Below, piece by piece: positions 4,965 to 45,409 of a stretch of 47,563 nucleotides of DNA; position 1 is the stretch's first letter; each line of letters opens with the position of its first letter. The position numbers and the translations under genes were made by a program. Source of the DNA: a virus. The DNA lies in IMG/VR virus record IMGVR_UViG_3300046714_000550, positions 1-47,563 of that record; one strand, 5' to 3'. The notes beneath the pieces were generated by a model that made no database searches, was not told where the DNA came from, and worked only from the letters and a program-made list of their open reading frames with translations.

Positions 4965-5060
4965 GGAATCGCGGCCCCGGCCCGGCTGATGATGGGCGCG
5001 CCGGCGACCGGGGGCGCGCGGTCGATCTCGGGAGAGACAGGGGGCACGCGCCGCGCACGG

Positions 5061-9839: not shown

Positions 9840-10012
9840 TCGCCGCCCCCGGGGGGCTTGCGGCCCCACGTGTTCGGCGGCAGCTCTTCCTTGAGGACTC
9901 GCTGGATCAGCAGCAGGACCTCGGTGTGAATGTCGTCCTTGCGCAGCATCTTCTTGGCGATCAGGGCGCCGGTGATCTTGCCGGCCAACGTGCGGATCGG
10001 GGATTGCGTCAC
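9836..10012 (-). CDS. hypothetical protein (58 aa)
   Basis: Unrecognised, basic and helical (IRTLAGKITGALIAKKMLRK, HTEVLLLIQRVLKEEL). GTG 10012 overlaps the exonuclease stop. Its C-terminus (GRKPPGGGE) is nearly the same as that of the exonuclease (GRKPPGGSE), and the next gene start has a similar GTGA context, suggesting a local duplication of the junction. Confidence 0.55.
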   Translation of the reverse strand: MTQSPIRTLAGKITGALIAKKMLRKDDIHTEVLLLIQRVLKEELPPNTWGRKPPGGGE

Positions 10013-10851
10013 TCGCTGCCTCCCGGGGGCTTGCGACCCCACTCCCGCTCGCACGCGTTGCGGAAGCCGCAGCCCTTGCACCACCAGCCGTACCGCGGCG
10101 CGCCGATGCCGGCCTTGAAGATCGCGTCCTTGCGGTCCTTCTTGATCTGCAGCAGCTTGAGGAAGCCGTCGCGCGCGGGGTCGGTCAGCGCGACCGGCAG
10201 GACCTGGACTTCCTTCTTCTTCAGCCAGCGCCCCGAGCCGCTCGCGTAGCGCGCGATGTGGAACTCGAAGCCGTCGAGCTGGATGCCCTGCGCGCGCAGC
10301 CCGAGGTCGTAGGCCAGCGGGTCGAGCGCGGCGGCCACGTCGTCCTCCGACCAGCCGCCGGACTTGCCGGTGGCCTTGTTGTCGATGGTCACCAGGCCGC
10401 CGTTGGCGGGCGTCTGGAGGCCGGTCTCCGCGAGCACGTCCACGAAGCCGAGGAAGCTCCAGTCCTGGCCCTCGAAGGCGACCTCGACCTTCTTCTGCAC
10501 GGCCACCGGCTGGATGTGCTGCATGACGTTGGCGTGGAACACTTCGGCGGCCTGCGCGATGTGGTCGACCGCGCTGTCCTCATCGATGCCGTCCCAGCGC
10601 GTCTCCTCGTCGCGGTTGCGAGCGCGGAAGTCGTTGACCACCAGCTCGACCACGTCGCCGGCCGGCAGGTTCTCGTGCGACTTGATCTTCTGCTGGTAGT
10701 CCACCGTGGCGCCGGTGTCGATCGCGGAGCCGGCGTGCAGGGCCCAGCTCGGCATCTCGTTGTTGCCCAGCACGTAGTGCTGGAAGAAGCTGTACTCGCA
10801 GCGGTCCAGCGACCCGATCTGCGACTTGGAAAGATGGTTGGTGTCGTTCAT
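10009..10851 (-). CDS. PD-(D/E)XK exonuclease with Cas4/AddB-type Fe-S cluster (280 aa)
   Basis: Likely resects DNA ends to feed the neighbouring annealing protein. Visible active-site elements: GSAID near 42-45, the acidic residue in FVDVL (D138), TIDNK (D157, K159) and a downstream helix with DPLAYDL (Y181). C18 at the N-terminus and C258, C261 and C267 at the C-terminus (WWCKGCGFRNAC) form the 1+3 cysteine arrangement that binds [4Fe-4S] in Cas4, AddB and related RecB-family nucleases. The length fits the family. The ATG overlaps the upstream stop. Confidence 0.8.
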   Translation of the reverse strand: MNDTNHLSKSQIGSLDRCEYSFFQHYVLGNNEMPSWALHAGSAIDTGATVDYQQKIKSHENLPAGDVVELVVNDFRARNRDEETRWDGIDEDSAVDHIAQAAEVFHANVMQHIQPVAVQKKVEVAFEGQDWSFLGFVDVLAETGLQTPANGGLVTIDNKATGKSGGWSEDDVAAALDPLAYDLGLRAQGIQLDGFEFHIARYASGSGRWLKKKEVQVLPVALTDPARDGFLKLLQIKKDRKDAIFKAGIGAPRYGWWCKGCGFRNACEREWGRKPPGGSE

Positions 10852-11147
10852 GGGCGTCCTAGACAGGTTGGGCAGCGATGGTCTGGCGCGATCATTCCCC
10901 GGCCATCGCACGTGGGGCACGCATCGTTGGACTCTTCGGCGCAGTCGCGGCACAGACCGTCGTAGGACAGGTCCTTCTTGCTGGTCGGCTCGTCGCAGTT
11001 CTCGCAGTTGCTCCAGTCCCCGAGGTCGGTGCAGCTCTCGCACTCGGTCCCCGGGTCGGCTTGGTCCTCGTCAATCTCGAACGTCCCGCCGCAGCGCGGG
11101 CACGTGAGGATGACGGTGCGGACGGGCGCGCTGTCGTTGTCGGTCAC
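10848..11147 (-). CDS. multi-zinc-ribbon protein (99 aa)
   Basis: Contains CPRC, CESC, CENC, CRDC, CPTC and CPTC, i.e. six CxxC knuckles, enough for three zinc sites, spaced somewhat like the DnaJ cysteine-rich domain though not CxxCxGxG throughout (only CPTCDGRG fits). The GTG at 11147 has GGAGGA 6 nt upstream. It could be a nucleic-acid-binding or chaperone-adaptor protein; no specific role is visible. Confidence 0.65.
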   Translation of the reverse strand: MTDNDSAPVRTVILTCPRCGGTFEIDEDQADPGTECESCTDLGDWSNCENCDEPTSKKDLSYDGLCRDCAEESNDACPTCDGRGMIAPDHRCPTCLGRP

Positions 11148-12348: not shown

Positions 12349-12674
12349 GATTGCTTACCTCCATTGACACGGGGCAGCTCGGGAACGTTCAGCGTCGGGT
12401 TGGAGCCCTTGAGCTCGGCCAGGAACAGCCGCATGTCGGCGCGCGAGACGAGGTCGGAACGTTCGAGCAGGATCAGGCGCGCGAGCACGCCCTCGACGGT
12501 GCCGCGCAGCCCGTCCAGCGCGATGGCCTGCGCGGAGAGCAGCTCCAGCGCGCGCTTCATGTCTCGCTGCGTGATGGTCAGGAACCTCGTGAGGCTGATG
12601 GCACCGCCGACGAGCAGCGTGAGAGTCCCGAGCTGGACCCACGATCCCATGCCGATCCTCGTCACCTCATCCAT
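12345..12674 (-). CDS. membrane-anchored coiled-coil protein, holin or spanin candidate (109 aa)
   Basis: One hydrophobic segment near the N-terminus (WVQLGTLTLLVGGAISLTRF, residues 11-30), then a long amphipathic helix region (MKRALELLSAQAIALDGLRG, VEGVLARLILLERSDLV). This N-in anchor with a periplasmic coiled coil is the plan of an inner-membrane spanin, or of the single-TM phage holin-like proteins. ATG 12674 overlaps the giant gene's stop (TGATG). Confidence 0.6.
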   Translation of the reverse strand: MDEVTRIGMGSWVQLGTLTLLVGGAISLTRFLTITQRDMKRALELLSAQAIALDGLRGTVEGVLARLILLERSDLVSRADMRLFLAELKGSNPTLNVPELPRVNGGKQS

Positions 12675-15600
12675 CAGCGCGCTCCAGCGGTCTCGCGGGA
12701 CATGATCTTCGACCATTCAGCACGGATTTTCAGCGCCGCCGGCTTGTCCTGAGCGGCCAGTGCCTTGAACCGCGACTTGAACTCCGCGGCGCTGTCCCCG
12801 AACAGCAGGCCCAAGGAATCGCGGCGCTCGCCGGCATCGGGCTGCTCGGCGTCCCTCCAGGCGAAGTAGCCGCGGACGCGCTCACTCAGCGACGCACCCG
12901 CGAGGTCCTTCACTTCCCGCGACAGGTGCGACATGCGCTCCAGCCGGCCGATCTCGTGCGGGCTGGTCTGCTTGAGGAAGGGGTTGTCGGCCAGCAGTTG
13001 AGCCTGCTGTCGGATGAGGAACGAGCGCTGCTCCGCGGGCAGGCCCGGCGTCCCGAGCTGCACGGCGTTGTCGCGGTAGCGGCGCGAGATGTCGTCACGC
13101 TCACCCTCGCGCGAGGCGCGGGCCTGCTCGCGGCGGTAGGGGTCGTACACGTCCTTGCGCGAGCCTGGCAGCGCCTCCTGCGAAGCGAACTCGGGCGCGG
13201 TCATGTGGGTCACGTAGCCGGGCTTGTCGGCGTAGCTGACCTGGCGCCGGCCCTCGGAATCCTCGGGGGCGTTGAGGAACTCCATCGCGCGTGCCCACTG
13301 AGCCGGGCGCACCGAGGACTTGAGCTTGCGCGAGGCGTCGTCCCACGCGATGCCGGCGCGGGCCCACAGGTCGTCCGTGGTCCAGTCGTCCGGCAGCGGG
13401 TTGCTCGGGTCGAGGCCCAGCGCGGAGTACCCGACCTGGCCCAGCAGGATCGCCTGCGACGCGGCCGGGATGTAGGGGAAGCCCATCGTGCCCGGCGCCG
13501 GGAACGGCACCATCAGGTCGGCCGCGAAGCGCTTGGCCTTGTCGCCGAAGCTGTTGCCCTCCGCGTCCCACGTCTCGTCGTGCAGCACGTCGCCGGCCCG
13601 GATGCCGATGGCCGAGGCGAGGTCGCGGTGGAACACGTGGCCGGCCGCGCTCACCGTGAGGCCCATGGCCAGCCAGCGCGCGAGCCGCGCCGGGTCCTTC
13701 TCGTTCGTGGCCGCGTCCACAAAGGACATGGCCGCGCGCAGCGGGTACTGGTTGAGCTGGAAGAACAGGCGGCCGAAGCTGTTGTTGAAGGCGCGTGGCG
13801 TGAAGGCGACACCGTGCAGGAACTGGGTCTTGGCCACGGTCGCGCGGCCGTGCAGCAGCGCGCGCTGCTCCAGCTCGGCGTCGATCTGCGCCTTGTCGAG
13901 CTGGCGCGTCTGGTGCAGCTTGCTGCCGTCGAGCATGTCGAGCAGTTGCGCGCCGCCGGGCAGCTCGGAGCCGTCCGCGCGGTAGAGCTTGCCGCGCGCC
14001 TGCGTGATGAGCTCGCTGGCCGGGATGCCCTGCGACCCGTACAGGTGGCTGATGAAGTCCTGGCTGTAGCGCTTCGCCCGCTCGTAGCCGGCGATGCCGG
14101 CGCTGCCGCGCAGGAAGCGCTCGGTCGCCTCCCAGCCGGCGAACGAGCCGCGCTCGAAGGTCTGCAGGCCCTTCTGCGCCGCGGTGCCGGCGATGCTGCC
14201 GCGCCCTTCGAGGATCGCGCCCTGGTGCTCGATGATGCCGAGCTGGTTGAGCAGGCGCAGGGTCTCGACGTTGCCGCCGCCGGTCATCTGCGCGGTCATG
14301 CGCGCCATGGCCTCGGCCGCGGGCTTGAGGCCGACGGTGCTGGCGAGCATGAACGATCCGCCCGCGAGGTTGTTCACCACCGGCTTGATCTGCCCGAGGC
14401 CCAGCGTGGTGTTGTAGGCCCACGTGCGCATGACCTTCGTGAGCGTGTTGTCAAGCAGCCAGAAGCCCTGCCTGTCGGCGAGCTTCATGTGGTTCATCCA
14501 GTCGACCGCCTCCTCCAGCCGGCCCTGCTGGCCGTAGCTGGCGGCGCCCTCGAGCAAGCCGCCGCGGTGGACCTGCATCCGCCCGATGTTCGCGGCCGTG
14601 AGCGGCACCTCGATCGCAGGCGAGCCCTCGCGCGCCTCCTTGATCCAGATGCTGCGGTCGCCGATCTGCACCGGCTTGGCGAGCTTGAAGTGGTAGAAGC
14701 CGCCGTCGCGCGGGTCGGAGGCCTTGATGGGCTGGCCGTCGATGTCGGTGATGCGCGGCGCGGCCTTGGCGGCGACCCACGCGTAGAGCCGGTCGCGGTG
14801 CTTCTCGGTCTGGCTCGACTGCGCGATGCCGTTCAGCGCGTCGGCCACGGCCTGGCCGTTCTTGTTGTTGACGATGGTGCCATCCACCACGCCGGTCGAG
14901 AAGTTGCGGCCGATGCTGCGCAGCAGGCTGGTCTTGTCGCCGTACACGACCTGCGTGAGCGGGCTCTTCTCGTTGAGCAGCTCGTCCAGCGCGATCTTGC
15001 GCATCATGCCCGGGAAATACTGCCGGCCCACGGAGACGAGGTCGGGCACGTAGCCCTGCGCGCCCTTGCGCGCCTGCTCGAAGCGCGACCAGACCTTCGC
15101 GCTGATCGGGTCGGAGAAGTACCGCGCGAGCTTGCGGTAGGGCATCAGGTTCCCGGAGTCGTCCAGGAACAGGTGCGACGTGTACATGAACTTCGAGATC
15201 GAGGCCGAGACGTCGCGCCCGTAGACCTGCTTGTAGCGGGTGCGCACGTGGTCAAACATCTTCTGGTAGACGCTGACGGCCGCGGCCCAGTCGCGGCCAG
15301 CGCCGGGGCGCCAGCGGTTGAGCTGCTCGATCTTGTCGGCGCGGAAGCGTGCGGCCTGCTCGGGCGTCCACTCCTCGCCGTCGTTGATGCGGCGCCCGCC
15401 GTCGGCCAGGTCGAAGGCCCACAGCTCGGGCGTCGAGAGCTGGTTGCGCTTCAGCCCGAACCAGCTCTTGTTCAGGCCCTCGATGCCGGACTCGCCGAAG
15501 TCGGAGACGCGCGAGAGCTTCTCCTCGGCGTTCTTCTGGGCCGCGAGCATCCCGTGGTACTCGCGCTTGCTGCGCACGTCCCACTGGAACGCGGTGTCGA

Positions 15601-18600
15601 AGAACTCGGCGCTGATGTTCGAGAGCGGGTCGCCCAGCCAGCTCCGCACGCTGGTCATGCCGGTCTTGATGTTGCCGGCGGCGCGGCGCAGCGAGCGCGG
15701 CGGCCGCTCGCCGGGGTGAGCCTGCTCCCACGCGTCCAGCTTCTGCCGGCGCGTCTGCTCCATGTTCACGAGCCGCTGGCGCGTGAGCAGTTGGAGCTGG
15801 TCGTCCTTGCGGCCACCGAAGATCAGGGCTGGATCGCGGAAGGCCCGCAGGGTCGCGCGCAGCATGGAGTCGCTCTGCGGCGCCACGAGGGCCGGCGCGC
15901 CGTGCACCTGGTCGGCCGCGTCGAGCATCCGCGCGTTGACCATCTGCGCCTTGGCCAGAAACTGCGCCTTGCTGAGTTGCGGCGCGAGCGCCTCGTGCGC
16001 GTGGTCAAGGTCCGATCCGGACTCCATCGCCAGCGCGAGCTGGATCTCGTCCTCGCGCAGCCCGCCCGCGCGCAGCCGGTCGAGCGCCTCGGGCAGCACC
16101 TCGGCCTTGAACTGGCGCGCGAGGTCGGGCCGCTCGCTGGTGATGTTCTTCCACTTCCATGCGTCGGCGGCCTTGCCCTCGTCGCCGCCGTAGGCGCGCG
16201 TCTGCGCGCGGCGCTCGCGGCGGCCGCCCATGAACACCATGCCGCGCTCGCCGCGGCGCAACTCCGGGTCGGTGTAGTCCTTCGCGTCCGTGCCCTTGTC
16301 GGAAGTCGCCGGCATGACGTAGGTGTCCACGTCCATCCGCCCGCTGCCGGACACCTTGATGACCGTGCTGCGCGGGTTCTTCTTGCCGAAGTGCAGGACG
16401 GCCTCGGGCGCGCCGGCGTCCAGCGTCTGCTGGAGCGCGTCGGCCAGGAACTTCGGCTGCACGCGGACCCTCTCGCCGCCGGGCAGCTCGATGGTGGTGC
16501 CGACCGGGATGTAGCTGCTCCTGCCGCCAGCGGCCGCATCGCCGATCTTCTGCAGCGAGCGCAGGCGCCCGATCAGCTCGCCCAGCTTGGCGGCCGGCAC
16601 ACGCACGACCTGGCCGCCCTTGAGGTCGCGCTCCGAGCTCTTGATGACCTCGCCAGTCGGCGGGAACTCGCCGTCGAGCTTCTCGACAATCGAGCCGCCC
16701 TTGCCGCGGATGTTGTAGACGCCGGGCTTCACCTTGAGGCCGTGCTCGCCCTTCACGATCGTCATGCGCTTGCCGTCGGTGGTGACGAGCGTGTTCTCGT
16801 CCTGCACGTAGGTTCCCGTGAAGGCGTAGCGGCCCTCTTCCTTGGAGACGGACGGGCGGGAGATTTCCACCGGGCCCTTCTTCTCCTGCGCGACGACCGG
16901 CGTGCTGACGTGGATGTCCTTGACGCCGTCCTCGAGCAGCTTGCTCGCAGCGCGCTGGCGCGTGCCCGCCTTCGGGCCGCTGGCCTGCACGACGCTCTGC
17001 AGGAAGTCCGCCCCGAGCTCACCCTGAAGCGGATGACCGCGCATCGAGCCGCCCGGCCCGAGGAGATCGAACAGCGCCTCGTTCTCGTCGTCCGTGAGCT
17101 TGCGTCCGAGCGTGGCCTCCATCTGCGCGACGTTGACGCCGTGGCCTTGATCGCGGTCGACGTCCGGCTCCAGCCGCGCCTTGCCAAGCTGCTCGCGCAT
17201 CGCCGCGCCCGCGGCAGCCTTGGCCTCGGGCAGCATCGGCTTCTTGCCGAACTTCTTGTCGTGCTCCTTCTGCAGATCGCCGGCCAAGCTCGAACCGTAC
17301 TGCTGGTCGGCGATCTTCTGCTTCTCGATCCGCGCCCGCGACTGCTGCTCGCGGTTCGCGCGCTTGTCGGCCGCCGATCCCGGCTTCGGCGGCGCGCCAG
17401 GCTCCCAGTCCTCGGTGGGGACGCCCTCCGGGAACGCGCGCCGGAACTCCGCGATCTTGTCCAGCACGACCCGCTCGGCGGCGCCACGCGCGTCCTCGGC
17501 TCTCGTCCTGGCCTGCGAGGTCTTGTTGTTCGGATTGGCCATGAAGGCCGACCGCGCCGCGTCCTCGGCGGTGCGCGCCTGCCGTGCAACCTCGCGCAGA
17601 GCCGCGATCTCCTCGCGCCCAGCCGCGGCCAGCGCCGCGGGGTTCTCATCGCCAGCGTAGGGTGAGTCAGGGAGGATCTCGGGAGCAGCCGCCGGCTGCC
17701 GCAGCTTCTTGATGTCCTTGTTCTGCGCGGCGAGTCGCTGGTCCTTCCTCGCCTGCAGGATGTCCTCGTCCGACTGCCCCGCCGCGGCCGGCTGCGACAC
17801 CGGCTTGCCCATGAGCTTCTCGTGCTCGGCGTCGGCCTCGTTGTCGAGCTTGGCCGTGTGCTCGTACACGTCGCGGATGTACTGCTCCACGATCTCCGGG
17901 CCCGCGTGCTTCTTCAGGTCGGGGAAGTTCTTGGTGTACTCGTCGAAGATGTGGTTCGCGGCCTCGGCGAGATTCTCGTCGCCGTGCGAGCGGTCGTCGT
18001 TGAGCTCGAAGCGCGCGTCCTCCAGGTTCTTCCAGCCGGGCGCCCACTCCTCGATGATCTGGTCGGCCTGCTTCGCGCGCGCGGACTCGTTGGTCTCGCG
18101 TCCTTGGGCGCCTGCTGCGGCGATGACCCTCTCTGCGTCCTCGTCCGTGAACTCCTTGCCGGCGCGCAGCGCGGTGCTCTCGGCGTTGCCCACCGCGACC
18201 ACGTCCGGCTCGGCCCCGGGCTTGTCGGCTTCGCGCTCGGCGTCGGTGATCCGCTCGGCCGTGATCGGGTCCGTGCCCTTGGGCACGGGCGGCCGGCCCT
18301 GCGTGAGCTTCCCGGACGCCACGCGCTTCTCGCGCTGCTGCAGCTCCGCGTTCAGCTTGCGCGTGGCCTTGTCGTAGCCGGCCCGCGCCCGCTTCTGCGC
18401 TGACGGGTCGCCCACGTCCGCGGCCTTGTCGTACAGGTCGAGCGCCGCGAGCTGGCCCTTGCGCAGCGCGATCTCCTTGCGCGCGAGGGACTTGCTGGTC
18501 TTGTCCGACTTGGGATTGTCGAGGATGCCCTGCGCGAAGCGGCTGGCGCCCTCGGCCTCGGTGCGTGCGCGCTTGGGGTCGAGCTGCTGGCGCGGCTCGA

Positions 18601-21592
18601 CGCCCAGCTCGGCGACCTTGGACTGCGGCACCGGCGTCCGCGAGGTCCGGGCCTGCTGCAGCTCGCGCCAGAGGTCCTCGGCGGCCGTGACCGCGGCCGT
18701 GTCCACGGGCTGCTGCTTGGCCACGCGGCGGTAGCGCTCGAAGGCCTTGGCCACGTGGTCGGCGTTGACCAGGACGTGGCCAGCGGGCACGCGGCCAGCC
18801 TTGGCGCCCTTGGGCGCGGGTGCCTCGGCCGGCTCGCCAGCAGGCGCCTCCGGGCCGCCGACGGGCGGCCGCTCGCGGTAGGGCCCCGGGGGTCCGCTGG
18901 TGCCCGGGGGCATCGGGCCGCCCTGGTTCTCCTCGCCCTGCTCGGGGCCCTCGGGCTGGCGCGGCGAGGTCACCATGGGCTGCACGGCGCCCTCGGTCAG
19001 CGTGCCCTCGCGCTGGCGGCGGCGCATCTCCTCGACCGGCATGGTGGGCACGCCGGTCCCCGGCAGGCCCTCCTTCTCGGGCAGGAACGGCCCGTGAACG
19101 CCCGGAAGGCCGAGGCCGATGGGGCCCGGCTCCTGCGGCGGCCCTGTCTCTCCCGGCTGCGGCCGCGGATAGGGCGGCGCGAACTCGCTGCCGATCCGCG
19201 GCCTGCCCATGTTGGCGAGCTGCTGGATGTCCTCCGGCCAGTTGCGAACGTCGTGGCCGTACAGGTGCGTGAGCAGGCCCCAGCCCTTCTCGGTGAGGTC
19301 GCCGTCCGGGCCCTGCACCAGCCCGCGGCGGATGCCGGGATCGAGCTTGCCGAAGCCCTCGCGGTCGATGGCCTTCTGCGCGTCCATCTCCCGCTCGGCG
19401 CGCTGCTCGTCCGCTGTGCGCATGGACACGTCGACGTTGCGCTGGATCACGCGCTCGCGCTCGACGTGGTAGGCGCCGGGCGCCTGTCCCTCGGGCAGCG
19501 CCGGCACCTTGGCGCTGCCGTAGGCGAGCACCTTGATGTGCTCGGGCCAGTCGTGCCAGTCGGAGCCGTAGAGCCGGGACAGGAGCTGGTGGCCCTGCTC
19601 GTGCAGACCGCCGGTGCGCGGGTCGATGATGGCGTCGCGCGCCTGCTGGTACGTGAGGCGGCCGAAGTCGCGCCGCTCGCGGCCGATCTTCAGCTTGCGC
19701 TGGAGCAACTCCTTCTGCACGGTCTCGACGCCGCTGGGCGCGCCCGGGCCCACGAGGCCGGGCAGTCCCAGCTCGCGGCGCGCGTCGTCGGCGGCCATGT
19801 GGTCCTCGGGGCTGGCGTTGGCCGGCGGATTCGTGATGCGCTGGAACTCGGCCTGCTCGGCGGGCACCTGGCTGGCCTGCAGCCGCTTGAGCTCCTTGAG
19901 CGCAGCAGCGCGATCGGCGGCCTGCTGGCTCTCCTGCGGGGACACCTTGCGCAGATCCTTGAGCGGCACGCGCTTCACGCCGCCGTCCGGCATGACCACG
20001 TCGGCCGCGGGGTTGCGCGCCTGATCCCACGCCAGCGACTTGATCGTCACCACCTGGGTCTGCGGCGGCTCGTGCTGCACGTCCGTGACATCGCCGCCGG
20101 GCCCGCGCGTGATCGTGCGCTTGGCGGGCCGCGTGACCAGCTTGGCCTCGGCGTCGATGAGCGAGTGCTCGGTGAGCATCGTCTGCAGCAGCGGCACCTG
20201 GCCGACGAGTCGCGCGCGCTGCGCCATGACCTCGTTCAACTGCGCGTGCAGGTCAGGGTCGTCCTTGTACTGCTCGAGCGTCGCGCGCAGCGCCTTCTCG
20301 CGGCCGTTGAGCGCGGCGAGCTGCGTGTTGACCTCGTGCAGTTTCTGCCCGGCCTCCGACACGCGCTGGCTGCGGGCCATGTTCGCGTCGGAGATGTCCT
20401 TGAGGTCCGGGTTGCTGTGGATCGCAACCACCTTGTCGCGCGACGCGCGCCAGTTGCTCAGGTCCTGCCGCGCCTGCGCGAGCTGCGTGCTGGTCGAGAG
20501 GACGTTCTCGCGCTGGCCGCTGCGCTTGGCGTCCTCGTGCGCGGCCTCCGCGTCCTTGACGGCGTTGTAGCGCGCCGTGGCCCCCTGCTCGTAGACGCGC
20601 TCTCCGCGCAGCGGCGAGTGAATCGCGCCGACCAGGCCGAAGGTGATCGCGCCCTTGGCCGCGGACTCGGCCGCCTGCTGCGCGTTGCCGCCCTCAAGCG
20701 CCGTCTCCGTCGCGCCGAAGGCCGCGCCCGTGCCGGCCGACAGCAGGCCGCGCACGCCGCGCTCGATCAGCGGCGAGGCCGACGAGCCCTCGAACAGCGA
20801 GCGCGTGATCGCGTTCGCGCCGACGCCGGTGGCGCCCAGCGCGCCGAAGGTGAGCGCGCCCTTGAGCGCGTTGCCTGCGCGCGACTGGCCGGGCCCGGGC
20901 GCCTCCGCGCCGGACACGAGGCCGCCGGCCACGGCCTGCTCGCCGATGCCGGTGAGCGTCGGGCTCGCGCGCAGGATGCGCCCGATCGCCGGCACCGCCT
21001 TGCCGGCCCGCCCCGCGATGGCGCCGAGGCCCTTCTCCGCGAAGCCGAGCGGTCCCTCGATCTGGCCGTACAGGTGCAGCGTGTCGGAGAGCGCCTGCCC
21101 CACGAGGCCCTCGTCGCCGCGCGCGGTCTGCTCCAGCTCGCGCTGCCCAGCCTTGCCGTGCAGGATGGCCATGGGGCTCACCAGGCCCAGCGTGAGGCCC
21201 TTGGCGATGGGGTCGAGCGCCTGCGACTGGACTTCGGCCAGGTACGGCCCGAGCGCTCCCTTCGCGTACAGGCCCTGCTCGAACGCTCGCTGGCCGCCGC
21301 CCTCTTCCTGCGACTGCCTGAGCGCCTCGCCGCGCGCCTTGGTCAGCCCGCCGACCCACGGGTAGCGCTTGGCCTTGAGCGCCTGCCACTGGCCTTCCGC
21401 CTGCGGGTACTTGTCGAGGAAGTTCAGCTCCATCTGCTGCGCGGCGCCGAACGATGGAGAGACGAGCCCGGGCGTCTTGCGCGCCCCCGCCACCGGGCCG
21501 GCGCGGTACAGGTCCAGTCGGCCGGCCTCGATGTCCGGGTTGACGGCGTCCCACGCTGCGACGAGGTGGTCGAGGTCCGTGGGGCCGGGCAT
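12674..21592 (-). CDS. giant virion protein with LPD38-like C-terminus and clamp-like segment (2972 aa)
   Basis: Probably packaged in the capsid and ejected with the DNA. Layout: residues 1-180 mixed; 185-340 Gly/Ala-rich amphipathic stretches that may cross membranes; 345-640 coiled coils; a duplicated module (about 640-697 and 743-800; RLYGSDWHDWPEHI and HLYGHDVRNWPEDI); 804-930 Pro/Gly-rich linker; 960-1480 charged helices; 1580-1765 a segment like the bacterial beta clamp (LVTTDGKR, VQPKFLADAL, YVMP); 1850-2590 helical, including YFPGMMRKIALDELL; about 2590-2760 FFQLNQYPLRAAMSF and following, resembling large polyvalent-protein domain 38 of giant phage proteins. No T7/N4-type RNA polymerase motifs seen. 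The start is at a TGATG overlap. Confidence 0.85.
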   Translation of the reverse strand: MPGPTDLDHLVAAWDAVNPDIEAGRLDLYRAGPVAGARKTPGLVSPSFGAAQQMELNFLDKYPQAEGQWQALKAKRYPWVGGLTKARGEALRQSQEEGGGQRAFEQGLYAKGALGPYLAEVQSQALDPIAKGLTLGLVSPMAILHGKAGQRELEQTARGDEGLVGQALSDTLHLYGQIEGPLGFAEKGLGAIAGRAGKAVPAIGRILRASPTLTGIGEQAVAGGLVSGAEAPGPGQSRAGNALKGALTFGALGATGVGANAITRSLFEGSSASPLIERGVRGLLSAGTGAAFGATETALEGGNAQQAAESAAKGAITFGLVGAIHSPLRGERVYEQGATARYNAVKDAEAAHEDAKRSGQRENVLSTSTQLAQARQDLSNWRASRDKVVAIHSNPDLKDISDANMARSQRVSEAGQKLHEVNTQLAALNGREKALRATLEQYKDDPDLHAQLNEVMAQRARLVGQVPLLQTMLTEHSLIDAEAKLVTRPAKRTITRGPGGDVTDVQHEPPQTQVVTIKSLAWDQARNPAADVVMPDGGVKRVPLKDLRKVSPQESQQAADRAAALKELKRLQASQVPAEQAEFQRITNPPANASPEDHMAADDARRELGLPGLVGPGAPSGVETVQKELLQRKLKIGRERRDFGRLTYQQARDAIIDPRTGGLHEQGHQLLSRLYGSDWHDWPEHIKVLAYGSAKVPALPEGQAPGAYHVERERVIQRNVDVSMRTADEQRAEREMDAQKAIDREGFGKLDPGIRRGLVQGPDGDLTEKGWGLLTHLYGHDVRNWPEDIQQLANMGRPRIGSEFAPPYPRPQPGETGPPQEPGPIGLGLPGVHGPFLPEKEGLPGTGVPTMPVEEMRRRQREGTLTEGAVQPMVTSPRQPEGPEQGEENQGGPMPPGTSGPPGPYRERPPVGGPEAPAGEPAEAPAPKGAKAGRVPAGHVLVNADHVAKAFERYRRVAKQQPVDTAAVTAAEDLWRELQQARTSRTPVPQSKVAELGVEPRQQLDPKRARTEAEGASRFAQGILDNPKSDKTSKSLARKEIALRKGQLAALDLYDKAADVGDPSAQKRARAGYDKATRKLNAELQQREKRVASGKLTQGRPPVPKGTDPITAERITDAEREADKPGAEPDVVAVGNAESTALRAGKEFTDEDAERVIAAAGAQGRETNESARAKQADQIIEEWAPGWKNLEDARFELNDDRSHGDENLAEAANHIFDEYTKNFPDLKKHAGPEIVEQYIRDVYEHTAKLDNEADAEHEKLMGKPVSQPAAAGQSDEDILQARKDQRLAAQNKDIKKLRQPAAAPEILPDSPYAGDENPAALAAAGREEIAALREVARQARTAEDAARSAFMANPNNKTSQARTRAEDARGAAERVVLDKIAEFRRAFPEGVPTEDWEPGAPPKPGSAADKRANREQQSRARIEKQKIADQQYGSSLAGDLQKEHDKKFGKKPMLPEAKAAAGAAMREQLGKARLEPDVDRDQGHGVNVAQMEATLGRKLTDDENEALFDLLGPGGSMRGHPLQGELGADFLQSVVQASGPKAGTRQRAASKLLEDGVKDIHVSTPVVAQEKKGPVEISRPSVSKEEGRYAFTGTYVQDENTLVTTDGKRMTIVKGEHGLKVKPGVYNIRGKGGSIVEKLDGEFPPTGEVIKSSERDLKGGQVVRVPAAKLGELIGRLRSLQKIGDAAAGGRSSYIPVGTTIELPGGERVRVQPKFLADALQQTLDAGAPEAVLHFGKKNPRSTVIKVSGSGRMDVDTYVMPATSDKGTDAKDYTDPELRRGERGMVFMGGRRERRAQTRAYGGDEGKAADAWKWKNITSERPDLARQFKAEVLPEALDRLRAGGLREDEIQLALAMESGSDLDHAHEALAPQLSKAQFLAKAQMVNARMLDAADQVHGAPALVAPQSDSMLRATLRAFRDPALIFGGRKDDQLQLLTRQRLVNMEQTRRQKLDAWEQAHPGERPPRSLRRAAGNIKTGMTSVRSWLGDPLSNISAEFFDTAFQWDVRSKREYHGMLAAQKNAEEKLSRVSDFGESGIEGLNKSWFGLKRNQLSTPELWAFDLADGGRRINDGEEWTPEQAARFRADKIEQLNRWRPGAGRDWAAAVSVYQKMFDHVRTRYKQVYGRDVSASISKFMYTSHLFLDDSGNLMPYRKLARYFSDPISAKVWSRFEQARKGAQGYVPDLVSVGRQYFPGMMRKIALDELLNEKSPLTQVVYGDKTSLLRSIGRNFSTGVVDGTIVNNKNGQAVADALNGIAQSSQTEKHRDRLYAWVAAKAAPRITDIDGQPIKASDPRDGGFYHFKLAKPVQIGDRSIWIKEAREGSPAIEVPLTAANIGRMQVHRGGLLEGAASYGQQGRLEEAVDWMNHMKLADRQGFWLLDNTLTKVMRTWAYNTTLGLGQIKPVVNNLAGGSFMLASTVGLKPAAEAMARMTAQMTGGGNVETLRLLNQLGIIEHQGAILEGRGSIAGTAAQKGLQTFERGSFAGWEATERFLRGSAGIAGYERAKRYSQDFISHLYGSQGIPASELITQARGKLYRADGSELPGGAQLLDMLDGSKLHQTRQLDKAQIDAELEQRALLHGRATVAKTQFLHGVAFTPRAFNNSFGRLFFQLNQYPLRAAMSFVDAATNEKDPARLARWLAMGLTVSAAGHVFHRDLASAIGIRAGDVLHDETWDAEGNSFGDKAKRFAADLMVPFPAPGTMGFPYIPAASQAILLGQVGYSALGLDPSNPLPDDWTTDDLWARAGIAWDDASRKLKSSVRPAQWARAMEFLNAPEDSEGRRQVSYADKPGYVTHMTAPEFASQEALPGSRKDVYDPYRREQARASREGERDDISRRYRDNAVQLGTPGLPAEQRSFLIRQQAQLLADNPFLKQTSPHEIGRLERMSHLSREVKDLAGASLSERVRGYFAWRDAEQPDAGERRDSLGLLFGDSAAEFKSRFKALAAQDKPAALKIRAEWSKIMSRETAGAR

Positions 21593-24387: not shown

Positions 24388-24727
24388 CGAAACCTCCGAA
24401 GCCGCCGCCCGGCTGCAGCATCTCGCACGTGCCGCACGTGCACGTACAGTGACCCGGCGCGCCGGGGTCGCCCTTGGGGCCCTCGGGCCCGGCCTTGGTG
24501 CCGTGATCCTCGACCAGCTTCTGCACCATGTCGAGCAGGTCGAGCGAGCCCTCGATCACGCCGCGGATGTCGTGCCGATGCGACTGCAGCACCGTGGAGA
24601 GGTGCCGGTCCACGACGGCCGGCTCGCGGTCGCGCGTGGTGATGTGCGCCTGCAGCTTGGCGCGCAACTGGTCGATCCTGCGCCGCTGGCGCTCGGCCTT
24701 GTCGCGGAAGGCGCTGGGGTTAGCCAC
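24380..24727 (-). CDS. coiled-coil protein with short collagen-like run and Cys cluster (115 aa)
   Basis: Residues 1-75 are helical (AERQRRRIDQLRAKLQAHIT, IEGSLDLLDMVQKLVEDHG). Residues about 79-92 are GPEGPKGDPGAPGH, four Gly-x-y triplets of collagen type, followed by CTCTCGTC and a Gly-rich end. Collagen-like triplets are common in phage fibres and spikes, so a trimeric virion appendage is likely. The GTG start overlaps the nozzle-protein stop. Confidence 0.6.
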   Translation of the reverse strand: MANPSAFRDKAERQRRRIDQLRAKLQAHITTRDREPAVVDRHLSTVLQSHRHDIRGVIEGSLDLLDMVQKLVEDHGTKAGPEGPKGDPGAPGHCTCTCGTCEMLQPGGGFGGFGD

Positions 24728-27700
24728 CGTAGGCGCCCTGCCCGTCGATGACGTTCGCCAGGAGCTTGCCGCGCGTCATGGTCACGGGCGCGTAGGCGCC
24801 CTTCCACGCGAGCATGAACATGAAGCCGATCCCGCGTCCGCGGAAGCCGCCGACCGAGGAGCGCAGAGACTCCGGGTTGCTGACCGGCAGGTTCACGAAC
24901 AGGCTCACGGGCCAGCGCACGTTGTAGTCGAAGATGATGTCCACGGTGCCGACGGCGCTGAAGCCGGCGACGACGACCTTGGACGCGGCGCGCTGCAGGT
25001 TCATGCGCTGCAGCTCGGCGAGCTGGTCGCCGTCACCGGGCTTGATGAGCCCGCTCGTCCAGTGCCCGTCGATGGTGCCGACGCGCCAGAGGTCACCGCC
25101 AGCGCCAGGACTGGCCGGGATGTCCTTCGGCATCAGAACCACGTGCACGTTGGTGCCGTCGCTGTACGCGAAGCGGATGCGCGCGCGGAACCGCGGAGCG
25201 CCCGAGTTGAACAACTCCGTGAAGTAGACCCCGCGCAGCAGATCGTTGGCGAGTTGCTCGGTGAGCGACGCGCCGATCATTCCGGAGTACGGCGCCGGCA
25301 GCGAGGCGGTGAGCAGCGAGAGCTTGTAGTCGTCGTTGGCCACGAAGGCCGTGCCCACCGAGATGATCGAGCCGTTCGTGAGGTTGGTGACCCCGCTGAC
25401 GAGCGCGTTGCCTGCGAGGTTGGGGCAGAAGTAGTCGATGCCGTCGGCCGAGGTCAGATCGAGCCGCCACAGCCGGCTGTCGCGGATGGCCCACATCTCG
25501 ATGTTCGGGCTGTTGAAGCGCCCGATGGAGGCCACGTCGTCCCAGCGGTAGTCGGTCCAGAAGGCCCAGTCCATGAGGTCGGCGAAGAGCACCAGCGTGG
25601 GCTCGTTGGAGTCGGCGCGCGTGGGGAACAGGAACACCGCGCGCAGCGGAGCGTAATACTCCATGCGCCAGCGCTCGCGGTCGGCGGTGTCAAGCGAGAA
25701 CGGGTACACCACGCGGGTCTGGTCGGTGTACTTGGAGGGCTCGGGCGAGAGCGCGTCCGACGCCTCTTCGCCGTCGATGGGCGCGCTGACGCGCAGCACT
25801 TCCATGCCCGACATCATGAACACCGAGCTGTCGCCCGCGAAGCAGAGGCCTTTCTCGGGCACCGAGCAGATGGCCCGGTGGCCGACCGCGCCAGTCTCCA
25901 ACTGCGTCAGCTCGAAGCTGAACGGCAGGCCCTGCGTCGCCTGCTCGAGATCGAACACGTCCCACTCCCGGCAGATGCCGATGTAGACCGCGTTCTCCTT
26001 GAACACGTAGAGCCGGTCGGCGTCGCAGTACATCGCTGTGATCGGCGCGTTGCTGCTGCCGAGCTCGACGTAGTAGAAGAACGGCACGCTGGTCGGGCGG
26101 CCCTGGTAGCTCACGTAGATGCGGTGCGGGGCCCACGAGAAGCCCGCATAGAACGCGCGGCCCTGGTAGGCCGCGACCATCGTGGCCCCGTTGGGCACGC
26201 GGCTGGCGAGGCCGCCGATGTGCGGCTGCGTGATCTGGTCGTCGGTCTTGGTCCCGATCAGCAGCGTGGTCTTGCCGCCCGTCGCTGCGTCGCCGGACGA
26301 GACCGGGAACTGCCCCTCCAGGAAGAAGATCGAGCCGTTCAGCGTGGTGCGGTAGACGCGGATGTGAGAGACGCGCGGGTCGGCCGGCAGCGGGACGTTG
26401 TGCAGCCGGATGTTGTAGGACTTGGGCTGCCCGTTGTGGCCGATCGTCGGGTGACTCGGCGGCTGCGTGCCGCGCATGACCAGCACCAGGCCCGAGACCT
26501 TGGGCTCGCCGGTGAACGCGTCGTCGGGGTTGCCGGCAACCGCGAACACGCCGTAGGTCGGCACGCGCATGGGCAGGCCGTTGGCCCACGTGAAGGCGCG
26601 CCCTGGCTGGCTCTCGTTCTGCAGCTCGTCGGACCAGTACGTGACGAAGAAGCCCCAGCCGACGTACTCCGTGCCGATGCCCGGCGAGAACTGCGCCGAG
26701 GGCGGCATGGGTCCGGTGCCCCACTCCGGCGCCGGCATCTCGCCGATCCACTTCAGGCCCTGCGCCGCATCGACGCGCTCCACGCCGAGGATGGTGGGCG
26801 AGCGCGGGAACGTGGTCTCGTAGGCCACGTCGAACTCGATCGGCCACTTGAGCGTGTCGAGGTTCTCGACCGTGGCCTTCTCGGCCGGCGTGAGATCGCG
26901 CGCCCAGATTTCCGGGACTGCGTAGAGCGGGCGCTCGATGAAGGCCGTGCCGACGACCTGGCCGTCCTCGTCGATCATCACGGGCTCGGAGGACGGCGAG
27001 ACCAGCAGCGTGCGGCCAGCAACGGCAGCGCGGCCCACGAGCGAGCTGGCCGAGAAGTGCTGGCGCAGGGACTCGATGCGCTTGAGCGAGCCGTCGCCCG
27101 CGCTGTCGTAGCGCAGCACCGAGGTCTTGGTCGCCACGATCACGTCCGTGTTGCCCGAGCGGCCGACGTGCGCGAGGACGCCCAGCAGCGTCTCGGGGCT
27201 GGGCTGCACGTTGTCCGGCTCGACGTGCCCCGCGATCTTGGTCAGCAGCACGCTGGTGAAGTCGTCGCCGCCGTAGAGGCTGTCCAGTCGCCCGGTGTTG
27301 ATCTGGCGCACCGCGCGCAACCGGTCGGGGAACATCCGGCCGTTGGGCAGGCCGTTGTAGGTGAAGGGCACGTTGCGGTGGACGGGGATCGTGTCCACGC
27401 CCGCGCTGACGGAGTTGATCTGCACCGCGGCCTGCGTGCGGCCCGACGTGATCTCGATGGGGATGACGGCGTCCAGCCCCATGTGCAGGCCGCCGACCGG
27501 GTCGCTGATGAGGTGGCCGCCGTCGATGTCCGCGAGCCAGGCCGAGCGCAGCCGGCCGCGCACGAGCGCGAGCGCGTCGCGCGGCACGAGCGCCTGCCAC
27601 GCCGCCGTGTCGTTCAGCATCGAGCTCAGGAATCCCAGCGCCTCCGCGGAGCCGAGGTTCTTGCTGAACATGAACGCCCCGTCGATCGAGCCCTTGGCGC

Positions 27701-30674
27701 CGTTGCTCACCATGCCCGAGGCCACGGCCATCGAGCTCGGGTCGTTGCGCGTGTCGCCATTGGTGCCCAGCGGCCAGCAGCCGCCCGGGTAGGCGTCGGG
27801 GTCGAGCGGGCTGGGATAGACCGGGCCGCCGAGCCACCACTCGCCGCCCTGCGGCTGCAGCTTGCCGCCGAGGCAGAACACGTAGCGGCCGACGCCGAAG
27901 AGCGCGCTGGCCGCCCAGCTCATTCCGCAGTTGGTGGACTTGCGCGCCTGCCCGGTGAAGGTGGGCACGCACTCGAAGATGGCCGACGGGTCGGTCACGT
28001 CCCAGACGCGCAGCGTCTGCTTGCCCACGATCGTGTCGGTGGTGTTGGTGGGCTGGCTGATCTGGTAGCCGGCCAGGATCGCGTAGACGTGGCCCTCGAG
28101 CTGCTTGGGCGACGAGAGCGCGTTGCCGCCCGCGTCGCAGAGCGTGACGTAGGGGTAGGCGTTGTCGTCCACCGGGTCGAGCGCGGCGTTGAGGAAGTTG
28201 TAGTCGTCGTCCTGGTCGTAGGGGATGTGCTGCGTGATCGCGCCCGCGGTCTTGTCGGCCGAGCAGCGGAAGAACTTGCTGTTGCCGCGCTGCTGCTTGC
28301 TGATCGACTTGTCGGTGTCGCTCGACCCATCGAGCTGGTACTTGCTGAACGCCGAGCCGAAGCCGAAGTCGCTGCGCACCACGTAGCGGGTGACGAGGTC
28401 GTCGTTGACCGGCGTGGCCGTGGCCGCGCCGTTGAGCTGATGCGCGACGAGGTCGATGCGAGCAATCTCCAGGTCCTGCCGGCCCGGCGGCTTGAAGATC
28501 GGGCCGGAGGCCGGCGGCGCACCGGCGGGCGCACTGTTGGCCCAGATGCTGTCGGGGTGATCGAAGCCCTCGGTGAAGCCCTGCGTGAAGCCCAGCGGGT
28601 CGTCGCCGTAGGTCGGGCTCGACCAGGCCGTCGAGGTCTTGCCCTCGCGGTTGGGCGAGAACAGTTGCGCGAGCGTGTGCACCTCGCCCTGCTGCGGGAT
28701 GGCCACGGCCGGGACCGGGATGTCGCCAGTGCCGGTGCCGGCGATGCTGGCGGGCTCCGTCTCGGGCGCCGTGGTCGGCCGGTACAGCACGAGCACCGAC
28801 ATCTCCAGCGGCGGCAGCAGCAGGTCGAAGGCGGTCTTGGGCTCGCCGTTGGCGTCGAGGCTCTGCCCGCCGCGGTCGCGCCAGAGCTGCGAGGCTGCGA
28901 GCGTGAAGGCCGGCGTGCCGCCGTTGAAGCGCGCGCTGCCCGAGCTCATGCCGATGTTGCCGGGCGCGATCGTGGCGCCGTTGTTCACGGGTTCGAGCGG
29001 ATGGAAGTCCTGCCGGAAGTTGAAGCTGCCGGCGTAGCCCGTGCTCTTGAAGCCGGTCTCGGCGTTCGCGTTTCCGATGAGGTAGAGCGGCGGGAAGATG
29101 TCGCCGCTCTCGGAGTCGAGGCGCCAGATGTTCACCGTGCCGGTGTAGGGCGTGACGGTCGCATCCTGCGACGCGTCCCAGGCCGCGCCGCCGGCCTTGC
29201 GCTTGATCGTGCGCGAGTCCGGGTTCCCGAGGCCCGAGCAGCCGGCGAGCAGCACGCCGTCGTCCGGCGTGGAGCCGCCGTCCGTGGCGCCGCTGAACTT
29301 GAAGGCGCCCGCGAACATGCGCAGCTCGCTGTACGCACCGGGGAAGGCGCACGTCACGCCGGCCATGCCGCCGCGGTTGACGGACTGGCCGCAGCCGTAG
29401 CCGTAGACGCCGCGCTGGTTGCTGGCCTTGGGCAGCCCGCCGACGTAGAGCGTGCGGCCGCGCCACGCGGGCGCGTTCTTCTTGCCCGCGATCTCGAACA
29501 GGCCCGACAGCTCCTGCAGGCCCATCGTCGGCGCGGCGTTGGCGGCCGGCAGCGGCTGGCTGCTGACCTCGCCGTAGAGCGCGCTGGAGCTGTCCACGCC
29601 GATCTCCAGCCGCGAGCTGCTGGCCGCGGTGAAGTCGCGCTCGATGGCGACGGTGATCGTGTGCGGCAGCGTCGGGTCGATGGCCGCGGCGACGGCATTG
29701 GTGCCCTGAGTGCCCCAGCCGGCGAACACGAACATGCGGTTCATGCCGTTCACGTTGAAGCCGGTCGTGGCGTCGATGCCTGGGTCGCTGTACTCCCAGA
29801 GCAGCATCAGGTGCCACTGGAGCGTGAACGGCGACCAGACGTACATCACGTACAGGTCGCCCGGGTCGCAGTAGCCGTTGCCGACGTTGGTGCTCGTGGC
29901 GAAGGGCGCGGGGAAGCGCAGCGCACCGGCGCCGCTGGGCGCGCCGTGGAAGTTGGTGAAGTAGCTGTTCAGCCAGGACGGCACGCCGGCAGCAACCTGC
30001 GTCGTCCACGTTTTCTGGCTGTTGTTGAGGTGCCACATCGGGAACTCGCGCAGCGGCCCCGTGCCCAGCACGCACGCCACCTTGGGGCGCACCTTGAGCG
30101 CGTCGGCCGTGGCCACCGCGCTCGTGTTGCCCGGCACCCACGGGTACATCTTGCCGGCCGTCGTGTCGTAGCGGTTGCTCGCGGCCGGCGGCTTCCAGAG
30201 CTTGGCGTCGGCCTGCTCGAAGCCGAGCGCCGCCAGGCCGCGCTTGTAGATCGTGTAGTTTCCGAAGCCGCCGCTTGGCGCGACGACCTCGGCCGATTCG
30301 TTCGGGCGCTGGTGCAGGCCGTTGTAGTCCAGCGAGTACGGGATGTCCGTCTCGCCGATCTGGTCGAGCTCGACGCCCTTCACGCGGATCTGGAACGTGA
30401 CCTTCGTGCGGTTGGTGCCGACGGTGTCGGCCCAGAACTTCGAGAGGTTCACCGGCAGCTTGGTGGAGAGGATGCCGGTGTCGGTGCCGGCGAGCTGCAC
30501 GGAGCGGTTGAACACCGGGCTCTTCGTCGCCTTCGCGTAGCCGCGGCGCGAGTCCAGCAACTGCCGCCCGAGGTTCGCGTTGCGCGCGGAGTTGGCGCGC
30601 GTGGCCTCGAGCTGCTCCACGTCGTTGCGGGTGTTCATGCCCGCGAAGCGCTGAATGGGGATGGGGACGATCAC
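24720..30674 (-). CDS. very long tail nozzle / stabilisation-like protein (1984 aa)
   Basis: Beta-rich throughout with no membrane segment. The N-terminus begins VIVPIPIQRFAGMN, like the opening of P22 gp10/T7 gp12-type nozzle proteins. The C-terminal 700 residues have propeller-like repeats, e.g. HRIYVSYQGRPTSVPFFYYV, DADRLYVFKENAVYIG and GLCFAGDSSVFMMSGMEVLR. Between them lie about 1000 extra residues, including two lectin-like beta-sandwich candidates (near FVFAGWGTQGTN and SIDGAFMFSKNLGSAEALGF). P22 gp10 and T7 gp12 are about 470 and 790 aa, so this is a greatly expanded version, perhaps with receptor-binding inserts. GTG start at the neighbour's stop. Confidence 0.65.
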   Translation of the reverse strand: MIVPIPIQRFAGMNTRNDVEQLEATRANSARNANLGRQLLDSRRGYAKATKSPVFNRSVQLAGTDTGILSTKLPVNLSKFWADTVGTNRTKVTFQIRVKGVELDQIGETDIPYSLDYNGLHQRPNESAEVVAPSGGFGNYTIYKRGLAALGFEQADAKLWKPPAASNRYDTTAGKMYPWVPGNTSAVATADALKVRPKVACVLGTGPLREFPMWHLNNSQKTWTTQVAAGVPSWLNSYFTNFHGAPSGAGALRFPAPFATSTNVGNGYCDPGDLYVMYVWSPFTLQWHLMLLWEYSDPGIDATTGFNVNGMNRMFVFAGWGTQGTNAVAAAIDPTLPHTITVAIERDFTAASSSRLEIGVDSSSALYGEVSSQPLPAANAAPTMGLQELSGLFEIAGKKNAPAWRGRTLYVGGLPKASNQRGVYGYGCGQSVNRGGMAGVTCAFPGAYSELRMFAGAFKFSGATDGGSTPDDGVLLAGCSGLGNPDSRTIKRKAGGAAWDASQDATVTPYTGTVNIWRLDSESGDIFPPLYLIGNANAETGFKSTGYAGSFNFRQDFHPLEPVNNGATIAPGNIGMSSGSARFNGGTPAFTLAASQLWRDRGGQSLDANGEPKTAFDLLLPPLEMSVLVLYRPTTAPETEPASIAGTGTGDIPVPAVAIPQQGEVHTLAQLFSPNREGKTSTAWSSPTYGDDPLGFTQGFTEGFDHPDSIWANSAPAGAPPASGPIFKPPGRQDLEIARIDLVAHQLNGAATATPVNDDLVTRYVVRSDFGFGSAFSKYQLDGSSDTDKSISKQQRGNSKFFRCSADKTAGAITQHIPYDQDDDYNFLNAALDPVDDNAYPYVTLCDAGGNALSSPKQLEGHVYAILAGYQISQPTNTTDTIVGKQTLRVWDVTDPSAIFECVPTFTGQARKSTNCGMSWAASALFGVGRYVFCLGGKLQPQGGEWWLGGPVYPSPLDPDAYPGGCWPLGTNGDTRNDPSSMAVASGMVSNGAKGSIDGAFMFSKNLGSAEALGFLSSMLNDTAAWQALVPRDALALVRGRLRSAWLADIDGGHLISDPVGGLHMGLDAVIPIEITSGRTQAAVQINSVSAGVDTIPVHRNVPFTYNGLPNGRMFPDRLRAVRQINTGRLDSLYGGDDFTSVLLTKIAGHVEPDNVQPSPETLLGVLAHVGRSGNTDVIVATKTSVLRYDSAGDGSLKRIESLRQHFSASSLVGRAAVAGRTLLVSPSSEPVMIDEDGQVVGTAFIERPLYAVPEIWARDLTPAEKATVENLDTLKWPIEFDVAYETTFPRSPTILGVERVDAAQGLKWIGEMPAPEWGTGPMPPSAQFSPGIGTEYVGWGFFVTYWSDELQNESQPGRAFTWANGLPMRVPTYGVFAVAGNPDDAFTGEPKVSGLVLVMRGTQPPSHPTIGHNGQPKSYNIRLHNVPLPADPRVSHIRVYRTTLNGSIFFLEGQFPVSSGDAATGGKTTLLIGTKTDDQITQPHIGGLASRVPNGATMVAAYQGRAFYAGFSWAPHRIYVSYQGRPTSVPFFYYVELGSSNAPITAMYCDADRLYVFKENAVYIGICREWDVFDLEQATQGLPFSFELTQLETGAVGHRAICSVPEKGLCFAGDSSVFMMSGMEVLRVSAPIDGEEASDALSPEPSKYTDQTRVVYPFSLDTADRERWRMEYYAPLRAVFLFPTRADSNEPTLVLFADLMDWAFWTDYRWDDVASIGRFNSPNIEMWAIRDSRLWRLDLTSADGIDYFCPNLAGNALVSGVTNLTNGSIISVGTAFVANDDYKLSLLTASLPAPYSGMIGASLTEQLANDLLRGVYFTELFNSGAPRFRARIRFAYSDGTNVHVVLMPKDIPASPGAGGDLWRVGTIDGHWTSGLIKPGDGDQLAELQRMNLQRAASKVVVAGFSAVGTVDIIFDYNVRWPVSLFVNLPVSNPESLRSSVGGFRGRGIGFMFMLAWKGAYAPVTMTRGKLLANVIDGQGAYGG

Positions 30675-45276: not shown

Positions 45277-45409
45277 CTCGTTCTCCAGGCCGACCCGCTG
45301 CGCCGCGGTCACGGGGATGGCGGCTGGGGAGGGGAGAACGAGAGCCCTCGCGCCGCGGCGCAGCAGCTTCACCGGGAGCTACCCGGCTGCACGGTTTGCG
45401 AGTTGTCTC

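Follow-up and report, generated by a model that had tools for sequence, protein, structure and literature searches.

A truncated beta sliding clamp embedded in a giant, cysteine-free and probably ejected phage protein

Introduction

Repeated domains make up the six-domain rings of both PCNA and the beta clamp, and phages eject RNA polymerase, ADP-ribosyltransferases and other enzymes together with their DNA. The N4-type virion RNA polymerases are cysteine-free according to three papers, whose authors tie this feature to passage through the tail or periplasm (PMC3715699, PMC2784036, PMC3915230). Polyvalent proteins have also been described from phages and conjugative elements (Iyer et al. 2017, PMC5512222), and the terms clamp, DnaN, PCNA and processivity are absent from the main text of that paper. 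Ejected giants are known, as are polyvalent proteins and short phage clamps; their combination was not found in the literature searched. The initial annotation of the locus treated here likewise knew of no description of a clamp-like segment of this kind, and none appeared among the matches listed for the open-access literature searched, bioRxiv excluded.

Here we analyse a phage protein of 2972 amino acids, P0001, of which residues ~1577–1764 are a truncated beta sliding clamp, both in their clamp homology and in their truncated architecture. By a slim balance of likelihood, we favour the reading that this truncated clamp, carried in a cysteine-free and probably ejected giant, would dock host clamp-binding proteins.

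The virus record and its giant protein

The window, by which we mean the whole stretch of DNA that was analysed, is a virus record of 47,563 bases with a GC content of about 70%. No end repeats were found in it, so that it may be a fragment, and no tRNA was found in it either. Most of its coding-like frames lie on the minus strand, and its recognisable products include the large subunit of the terminase (41021–42847), a P22-like portal (35253–37532), the major head protein (32832–34160), a primosomal-type protein (44443–45372), a PD-(D/E)XK nuclease (10009–11043) and a 2186-aa protein (24720–31280, minus strand) that weakly matches families of internal virion and virion structural proteins. 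Between the portal and terminase genes lies a 619-aa protein (38963–40822, minus strand) with a sub-threshold match to the alpha/beta hydrolases (PF00561, E 2.7e-4). A scan of 23 window proteins, not every one of which was run against both libraries, revealed no recognisable DNA polymerase, and clamp-binding motifs in window proteins showed no clear enrichment (seven matches, with 4.5 expected).

P0001, a presumed ejected virion protein, is encoded at 12674–21592 on the minus strand by an open frame whose GC by codon position (0.71/0.48/0.95) clearly marks it as coding, and it shares its strand and gene cluster with the terminase, portal and capsid genes. Searches with P0001 returned no recognised Pfam domain, including no LPD or other polyvalent domain, no match to a T7-like RNA polymerase domain in Pfam or PHROG, and, by tblastn of the whole protein, nothing among 50,697 phage and 72,556 plasmid records. 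Residues ~645–800 hold a duplicated stretch of ~50 aa, represented by GGLHEQGHQLLSRLYGSDWHDWPE (from 661) and GDLTEKGWGLLTHLYGHDVRNWPE (from 764). The HEQGH at 664, which might be taken for a zincin motif, is probably not one, because the repeat copy at 764 lacks it.

Anatomy of the clamp module

The three motifs on which the initial annotation had based its suggestion of a clamp lie exactly where it placed them, namely LVTTDGKR at 1602–1609 (with D1606), VQPKFLADAL at 1711–1720 and YVMP at 1758–1761; a further clamp landmark, KLDGEFP, had been missed. The sliding-clamp module as a whole, which comprises part of domain II and a shortened domain III, occupies 16301–16864 on the minus strand (residues ~1577–1764), as delimited by an HMM envelope (1577–1782), HHalign and the fold. 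Within it, the domain II remnant (16640–16849, minus strand; residues ~1582–1651) was traced by alignment to E. coli DnaN and to two relatives treated below, a second giant on contig G039 and the short clamp L226; the helix preceding RYAF, the first helix of domain II, is unrecognisable. The remnant includes the TDG loop LVTTDGKRMTIV (16754–16789, minus strand; residues 1602–1613), which corresponds to VATDGHRLAV of E. coli, and the stretch KLDGEFPPTGEVI (16643–16681, minus strand; residues 1638–1650), which lies at the position expected of a clamp landmark in the alignment to E. coli DnaN, where the counterpart is KLVDGRFPDYRRVLP, with P1644 equivalent to P242 and V1649 to V247. The equivalent of domain III, defined by fold comparison, follows at 16301–16627 (minus strand; residues ~1656–1764) and contains the strand and helix ERVRVQPKFLADALQQTLD (16418–16474, minus strand; residues 1707–1725) and the C-terminal clamp strand VDTYVMP (16310–16330, minus strand; residues 1755–1761), in which M1760 equals M362 and P1761 equals P363.

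Judged by the alignment to E. coli DnaN, the module is devoid of domain I, and its domain II has lost much of the second half; still present are the strands of domain II that bear the TDG loop, the DG-x-FP stretch and a domain III of reduced length. The TDG-to-FP spacing amounts to 38 residues, as against ~70 in E. coli DnaN. What remains appears from this alignment to be the part of a clamp that builds the cleft for clamp-binding motifs. No second clamp segment was found among the tiles of P0001 by HHalign with a profile that covers domains II–III only.

Sequence-profile evidence

Similarity to the DnaN family, which the initial annotation had proposed to look for with profiles, is present, with weak direct family scores. 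For the 216-aa segment that holds the module, TIGR00663 (dnaN) is the sole NCBIfam family listed at E up to 10 (E 0.0012; 17.8 bits, far below the curated cut-off of 137.65), and the best PHROG is PHROG 947, a processivity factor (E 0.0023), the others being weak (PHROG 3007, E 0.018; PHROG 6615, E 0.49). Both TIGR00663 and PHROG 947 place the TDG part of the segment at profile positions ~143–182, which is the correct register; Pfam listed nothing for the segment. Neither TIGR00663 nor profile A4 found anything when run against the whole window record, which indicates that the profile methods needed aiming at the segment.

Stronger scores came from HHalign with a profile made of 63 short phage clamps and the G039 copy, with the window left out. 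Against this profile the segment reached a score of 50.8 (probability 94.3%, E 9.8e-8) across 50 columns in the TDG half, compared with a best score of 21.5 for 100 shuffles of the segment. Tiles overlapping clamp segments took ranks 1–7 among 71 tiles of three giants, the ranks of the G039 tiles being partly by construction, since G039 is in the profile. The C-terminal tile 1621–1836, which excludes TDGKR, scored 23.1, while the best unrelated tile reached 18.1 and the best shuffle 21.5, so that this tile and shuffle comparison lends modest support to the C-terminal half alone. An HMM of the 63 short clamps ranked P0001 third among 3,443 sequences (E 0.013, envelope 1577–1782), and a clamp search of 248 ORFs of at least 600 aa from the collected loci gave E below 1 only for G039 copies and P0001 (E 0.00095), although E-values from such small sets differ from database E-values.

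A second giant, a bridging short clamp and the distribution of the module

Because the TDG-to-FP spacing of the module is unusually short, a DNA pattern could be built that full-length DnaN should miss, and this pattern has a single match place within the window. This pattern, the GAC pattern, matched 34 loci in viral contigs, one of which, L092, was judged to be a clamp; it is part of a 2628-aa ORF on the 44,118-base phage contig G039. TIGR00663 aligns to this ORF in three ordered stretches, 136–180 (E 6e-4), 238–263 (E 4.85) and 318–366 (E 0.0013), none of them above the cut-off, and the module in it matches PHROG 3007 (E 2.5e-16) and PHROG 947 (E 2.3e-8); the HMM of 63 short clamps matches the G039 giant with E 7e-26. 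This giant also carries the Pfam domain LPD1 ('large polyvalent protein-associated domain 1'; E 1.8e-10) and a HEWGH motif. When the two whole giants were compared as single sequences, HHalign returned one alignment, of P0001 1583–1762 with G039 1141–1306, at E 0.04 and a probability of just 1.3%, and no similarity between them was detectable outside the clamp module.

A second pattern, the GAT pattern, matched 31 loci in viral contigs, and another pattern matched three in genome contigs; 20 of these 34 second-round loci were dropped unviewed (frame closed within the match, or ORF below 90 aa), and one of the 14 viewed was a clamp. This is L226, a free-standing clamp of 174 aa (record G040, 4991–5512, minus strand), which is the closest relative found and whose TDG-to-FP spacing is nearly as short as that of the window module. 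BLASTP aligns it to P0001 with 31% identity over 1560–1650 (E 7e-7 for the single pair), and HHalign gives 66.6% for P0001 against L226 and 97.2% for L226 against the short-clamp profile. The motif letters of L092 and L226 are not independent evidence, because the search patterns derived from the window's motif; at the level of sequence comparison, their similarity outside those letters is.

Further relatives were sought in several ways. Scans of the viral contigs with the segment, with its C-terminal part or with the capsid protein alone yielded none, and alignment A2 gave 111 pattern matches in viral contigs and 504 in genome contigs, none confirmed. An alignment of capsid proteins led to 142 confirmed loci, the best 80 of which are 23–32% identical over their best segments; 39 capsid relatives (38 of the 80 loci and MW202554) contain no match to P0001, the window segment or clamp profile A5. 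The clamp domain is sporadic. With L226 as the query, a DNA-level search returned nothing and a protein-level search only weak matches in three phage records (E 0.1–0.3). Gordonia phage DumpTruck gp40 was set aside as weak (tblastn E 4; BLASTP 40% over 40 residues, E 0.049), the tblastn match extending beyond the gene end, and two unannotated faecal phage records that match the G039 clamp proved to be ordinary full-length DnaN.

Free-standing short phage clamps

A tblastn search with the G039 module matched 52 records of the phage collection at E up to 0.1, many of them annotated 'DNA polymerase III beta subunit' or 'sliding clamp'. Among viral contigs we considered the best 80 of 138 confirmed loci; one is G039 itself, and the other 79 lie in stop-to-stop ORFs of 95–406 aa, of which three are truncated by the end of a contig. 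With G039, these three ORFs and four of 349–406 aa removed, 72 sequences were left, 63 of them distinct, and the HMM built from these 63 recognises E. coli DnaN at 4e-37. When a profile combining G039 with three short clamps was run against PDB sequences, beta clamps were likewise found, with E down to 8e-23. L226, as well as the G039 copy, matches PHROG 3007.

The labels of these genes are inconsistent: short clamps that GenBank versions call 'DNA polymerase III beta subunit' are 'RusA-like Holliday junction resolvase' in RefSeq, as in Shigella phage EP23 (JN984867/NC_016566) and Klebsiella phage YX3973 (MK327140/NC_054652). PHROG 3007 matches clamp modules and yet bears the RusA label, which looks wrong.

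Fold comparison

The initial annotation had also pointed to structure prediction with a fold search, and the resulting models match the clamp fold, with low model confidence. AlphaFold, run without an alignment on the bare segment 1565–1780, gave a poor model (mean pLDDT 40), and the TDG half of the AlphaFold models has a pLDDT under 50. Foldseek against 350,542 PDB chains nevertheless placed DNA clamps (UL44, PCNA, 9-1-1 and the ASFV clamp) at all of ranks 1–15, with a best E of 0.26, none at or below 0.001, and the first DnaN at rank 39, behind PCNA, 9-1-1 and UL44 entries. VIA-align re-aligned 933 of Foldseek's own top chains and is therefore not an independent search; all 50 of its listed entries are DNA clamps (DnaN, PCNA, UL44, 9-1-1), with Z 7.0–8.2 and rmsd 2.3–4.9 over 83–96 residues, and it superposes model residues 92–200 on E. 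coli DnaN 249–366, which is domain III, and the register agrees with that predicted from the sequence. Since its notes warn that a Z under ~8 can reflect a merely common arrangement, what counts in these model-based comparisons is the uniformity of the clamp-only list, not the Z below 8 alone, and the low-confidence model calls for caution.

Against viral models, Foldseek ranked a PolIII-beta-like phage processivity factor first (probability 0.99) and PCNA second (0.95), the list being mixed below rank 2 and holding no E under 0.001. An AlphaFold job guided by an alignment of three sequences, including two homologues, did not raise the confidence (pLDDT 40.9); Foldseek ranks 1–7 of the guided model are all DnaN (no E at or below 0.001) and its VIA-align matches are clamps only, with a lower Z of 5.3–6.5, in both cases with a guiding alignment that itself held clamps. 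Taken together, the sequence profiles, the bridging homologue and the fold comparison support the earlier proposal of a clamp-derived domain.

Rank 23 of the viral fold list is A0A6J7W9M3 (UniProt/BFVD), a phage protein from outside the window that is named after an LPD domain. It aligns with the clamp model over 109 columns (rmsd 4.0, E 1.6, probability 0.44), and on this model comparison it is possibly a third giant with a clamp piece.

The peptide-binding pocket

Eighteen pocket residues of E. coli DnaN, as listed in PMC11139829, were compared with the three clamps. The G039 copy is identical at 17 of the 18, as against 32/159 elsewhere (p 5e-10), L226 at ten (20/141 elsewhere; one-sided Fisher p 2e-4), and the 63 short clamps at a median of 14 (range 11–16). 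The window copy retains eight, namely R152, T172, G174, R176, P242, V247, M362 and P363, as against 23/150 elsewhere (one-sided Fisher p 0.006). Its subsite I is mostly kept: the first seven of these residues belong there, L155F and L177M are conservative, and R246E and V360Y are changed. Subsite II is eroded by H175K, N320Q, V344P, M364A and R365T, with P363 kept and Y323F conservative. To judge by this alignment, the retained pocket residues lie mostly in the hydrophobic half, and we infer that the window module may bind peptides.

An alternative is that the clamp fold is real but structural or vestigial, a short clamp having been captured as a folding or packing module that binds no peptide. 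The degraded subsite II, the mere eight identities of 18 and the changes at R246, V344 and V360 speak for it; against it, the pocket of the window copy is still more conserved than the rest of the module, and the near-complete pocket of the G039 copy means that one giant at least has kept its pocket. We regard this alternative as unlikely, if by no means negligible.

Cysteine content and probable ejection

P0001 contains no cysteine in its 2972 residues, where 37.8 would be expected from 25 other window proteins (91 cysteines in 7159 residues; a set of our own choosing that omits the 2186-aa protein and P0001 itself). Nor is there any cysteine among the 2628 residues of the G039 giant, against 23.6 expected from 20 other G039 ORFs, whereas cysteine occurs in 61 of the 63 free-standing short clamps and twice in L226. 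In the loci of the capsid relatives, 16 of 19 ORFs longer than 1000 aa, many of them cut by the locus end and some near-duplicates, have at most one cysteine; the exceptions are L009 on the minus strand (13 cysteines; antisense to another giant), L010 (8) and L078 (6). Giant ORFs entirely free of cysteine, of 1201–1735 aa and many of them cut by the locus end, lie downstream of the capsid gene in L034, L035, L036, L037, L039, L044, L060, L068, L074, L081 and L082. They have no clear similarity to P0001, and their presence suggests that cysteine-free ejected giants may be general in the group. The 2186-aa window protein, with 18 cysteines, does not share this feature of P0001.

By analogy with the N4-type polymerases, ejection of P0001 into the cell is probable. 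The initial annotation had treated the giant as a virion protein that is ejected with the genome; the absence of cysteine and the same-strand cluster with the terminase, portal and capsid genes agree with this, while the virion location and the ejection itself are still things that we infer. P0001 could instead not belong to the virion at all, or be a fixed component of it, its lack of cysteine having some other cause, and the absence of any recognised domain in it and the cysteines of the other giant of the window (24720–31280) would suit that explanation. The depth of the cysteine deficit in P0001, the similar composition of most long ORFs of the relatives and the gene order make it distinctly unlikely.

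A proposed role and what it would mean

The docking that we favour would proceed as follows. The giant would enter with the DNA from the virion, and the cleft of its clamp module, chiefly subsite I, would dock QLxLF-like clamp-binding motifs found on host proteins, for example the alpha subunit of Pol III, the clamp loader, and repair polymerases or nucleases. The docked partners would then be either held at the incoming genome, which we slightly favour, or titrated; that no phage polymerase was recognised leans towards recruitment. According to PMC13254535, RecBCD binds the E. coli clamp, which makes capture of a nuclease another possibility. A broader proposition, which in our judgement falls a little short of an even chance, is that tailed phages may deliver a cysteine-purged, ring-incompetent clamp mimic, carried in the particle within an ejected giant protein, that captures host clamp-binding proteins (replicase, loader and repair nucleases such as RecBCD) on the genome as it enters, before phage gene expression.

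The module might also be a working processivity clamp. By oligomerising, or by joining the host clamp, it would encircle DNA and serve the replication of the genome that has entered. PCNA and the beta clamp are themselves assembled from repeated domains, and short phage clamps of similar length occur as genes of their own, which lends this some plausibility. With domain I and much of domain II absent, however, the module should not form a ring, ring formation by about one and a half domains being unlikely; the tiles of P0001 offer no second segment and the window proteins scanned no recognised polymerase, and we consider a working clamp quite improbable. That short DnaN-like motifs merely recur by chance in an unrelated fold is hardly credible, for all the weak direct family scores and the low pLDDT, given the shuffles and the 71-tile control, the bridging L226 and the clamp-only fold list.

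If the docking model is true, an ejected clamp module would extend the range of ejected cargo to the interaction hub of the replisome and would represent virion-borne control over the host proteins that the incoming DNA encounters at the very outset. The module may also serve as a minimal natural clamp-pocket domain for study, and the pairing of a clamp piece with the lack of cysteine offers a simple marker by which further examples could be sought among phage giants whose function is unknown.

Comparison with known systems

The window module has in common with DnaN (TIGR00663) the TDG loop, the FP motif, the C-terminal MP strand and, on the low-confidence model, the fold of domain III, together with eight of the 18 pocket residues; it differs in having neither domain I nor much of domain II, in its shortened domain III and in being embedded in a 2972-aa protein, and in place of three domains per chain the match is confined to residues ~1577–1764. 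The short phage clamps (Shigella phage EP23, 170 aa; Burkholderia phage Bcep781, 193 aa; L226, 174 aa) are, like the module, reduced and pocket-centred, and the module resembles their profile; they are, however, separate small genes, nearly all with cysteine, whereas the module is internal to a cysteine-free giant. Polyvalent proteins (Iyer et al. 2017) share with P0001 a very large and apparently multidomain architecture; the G039 giant fits this type with its LPD1 and HEWGH motif, whereas P0001 carries no Pfam LPD. The N4-type virion RNA polymerases, in the papers cited above, are likewise giant (~3400–3800 aa) and cysteine-free; no RNA polymerase domain matched in P0001, the cargo of which would be a piece of a sliding clamp.
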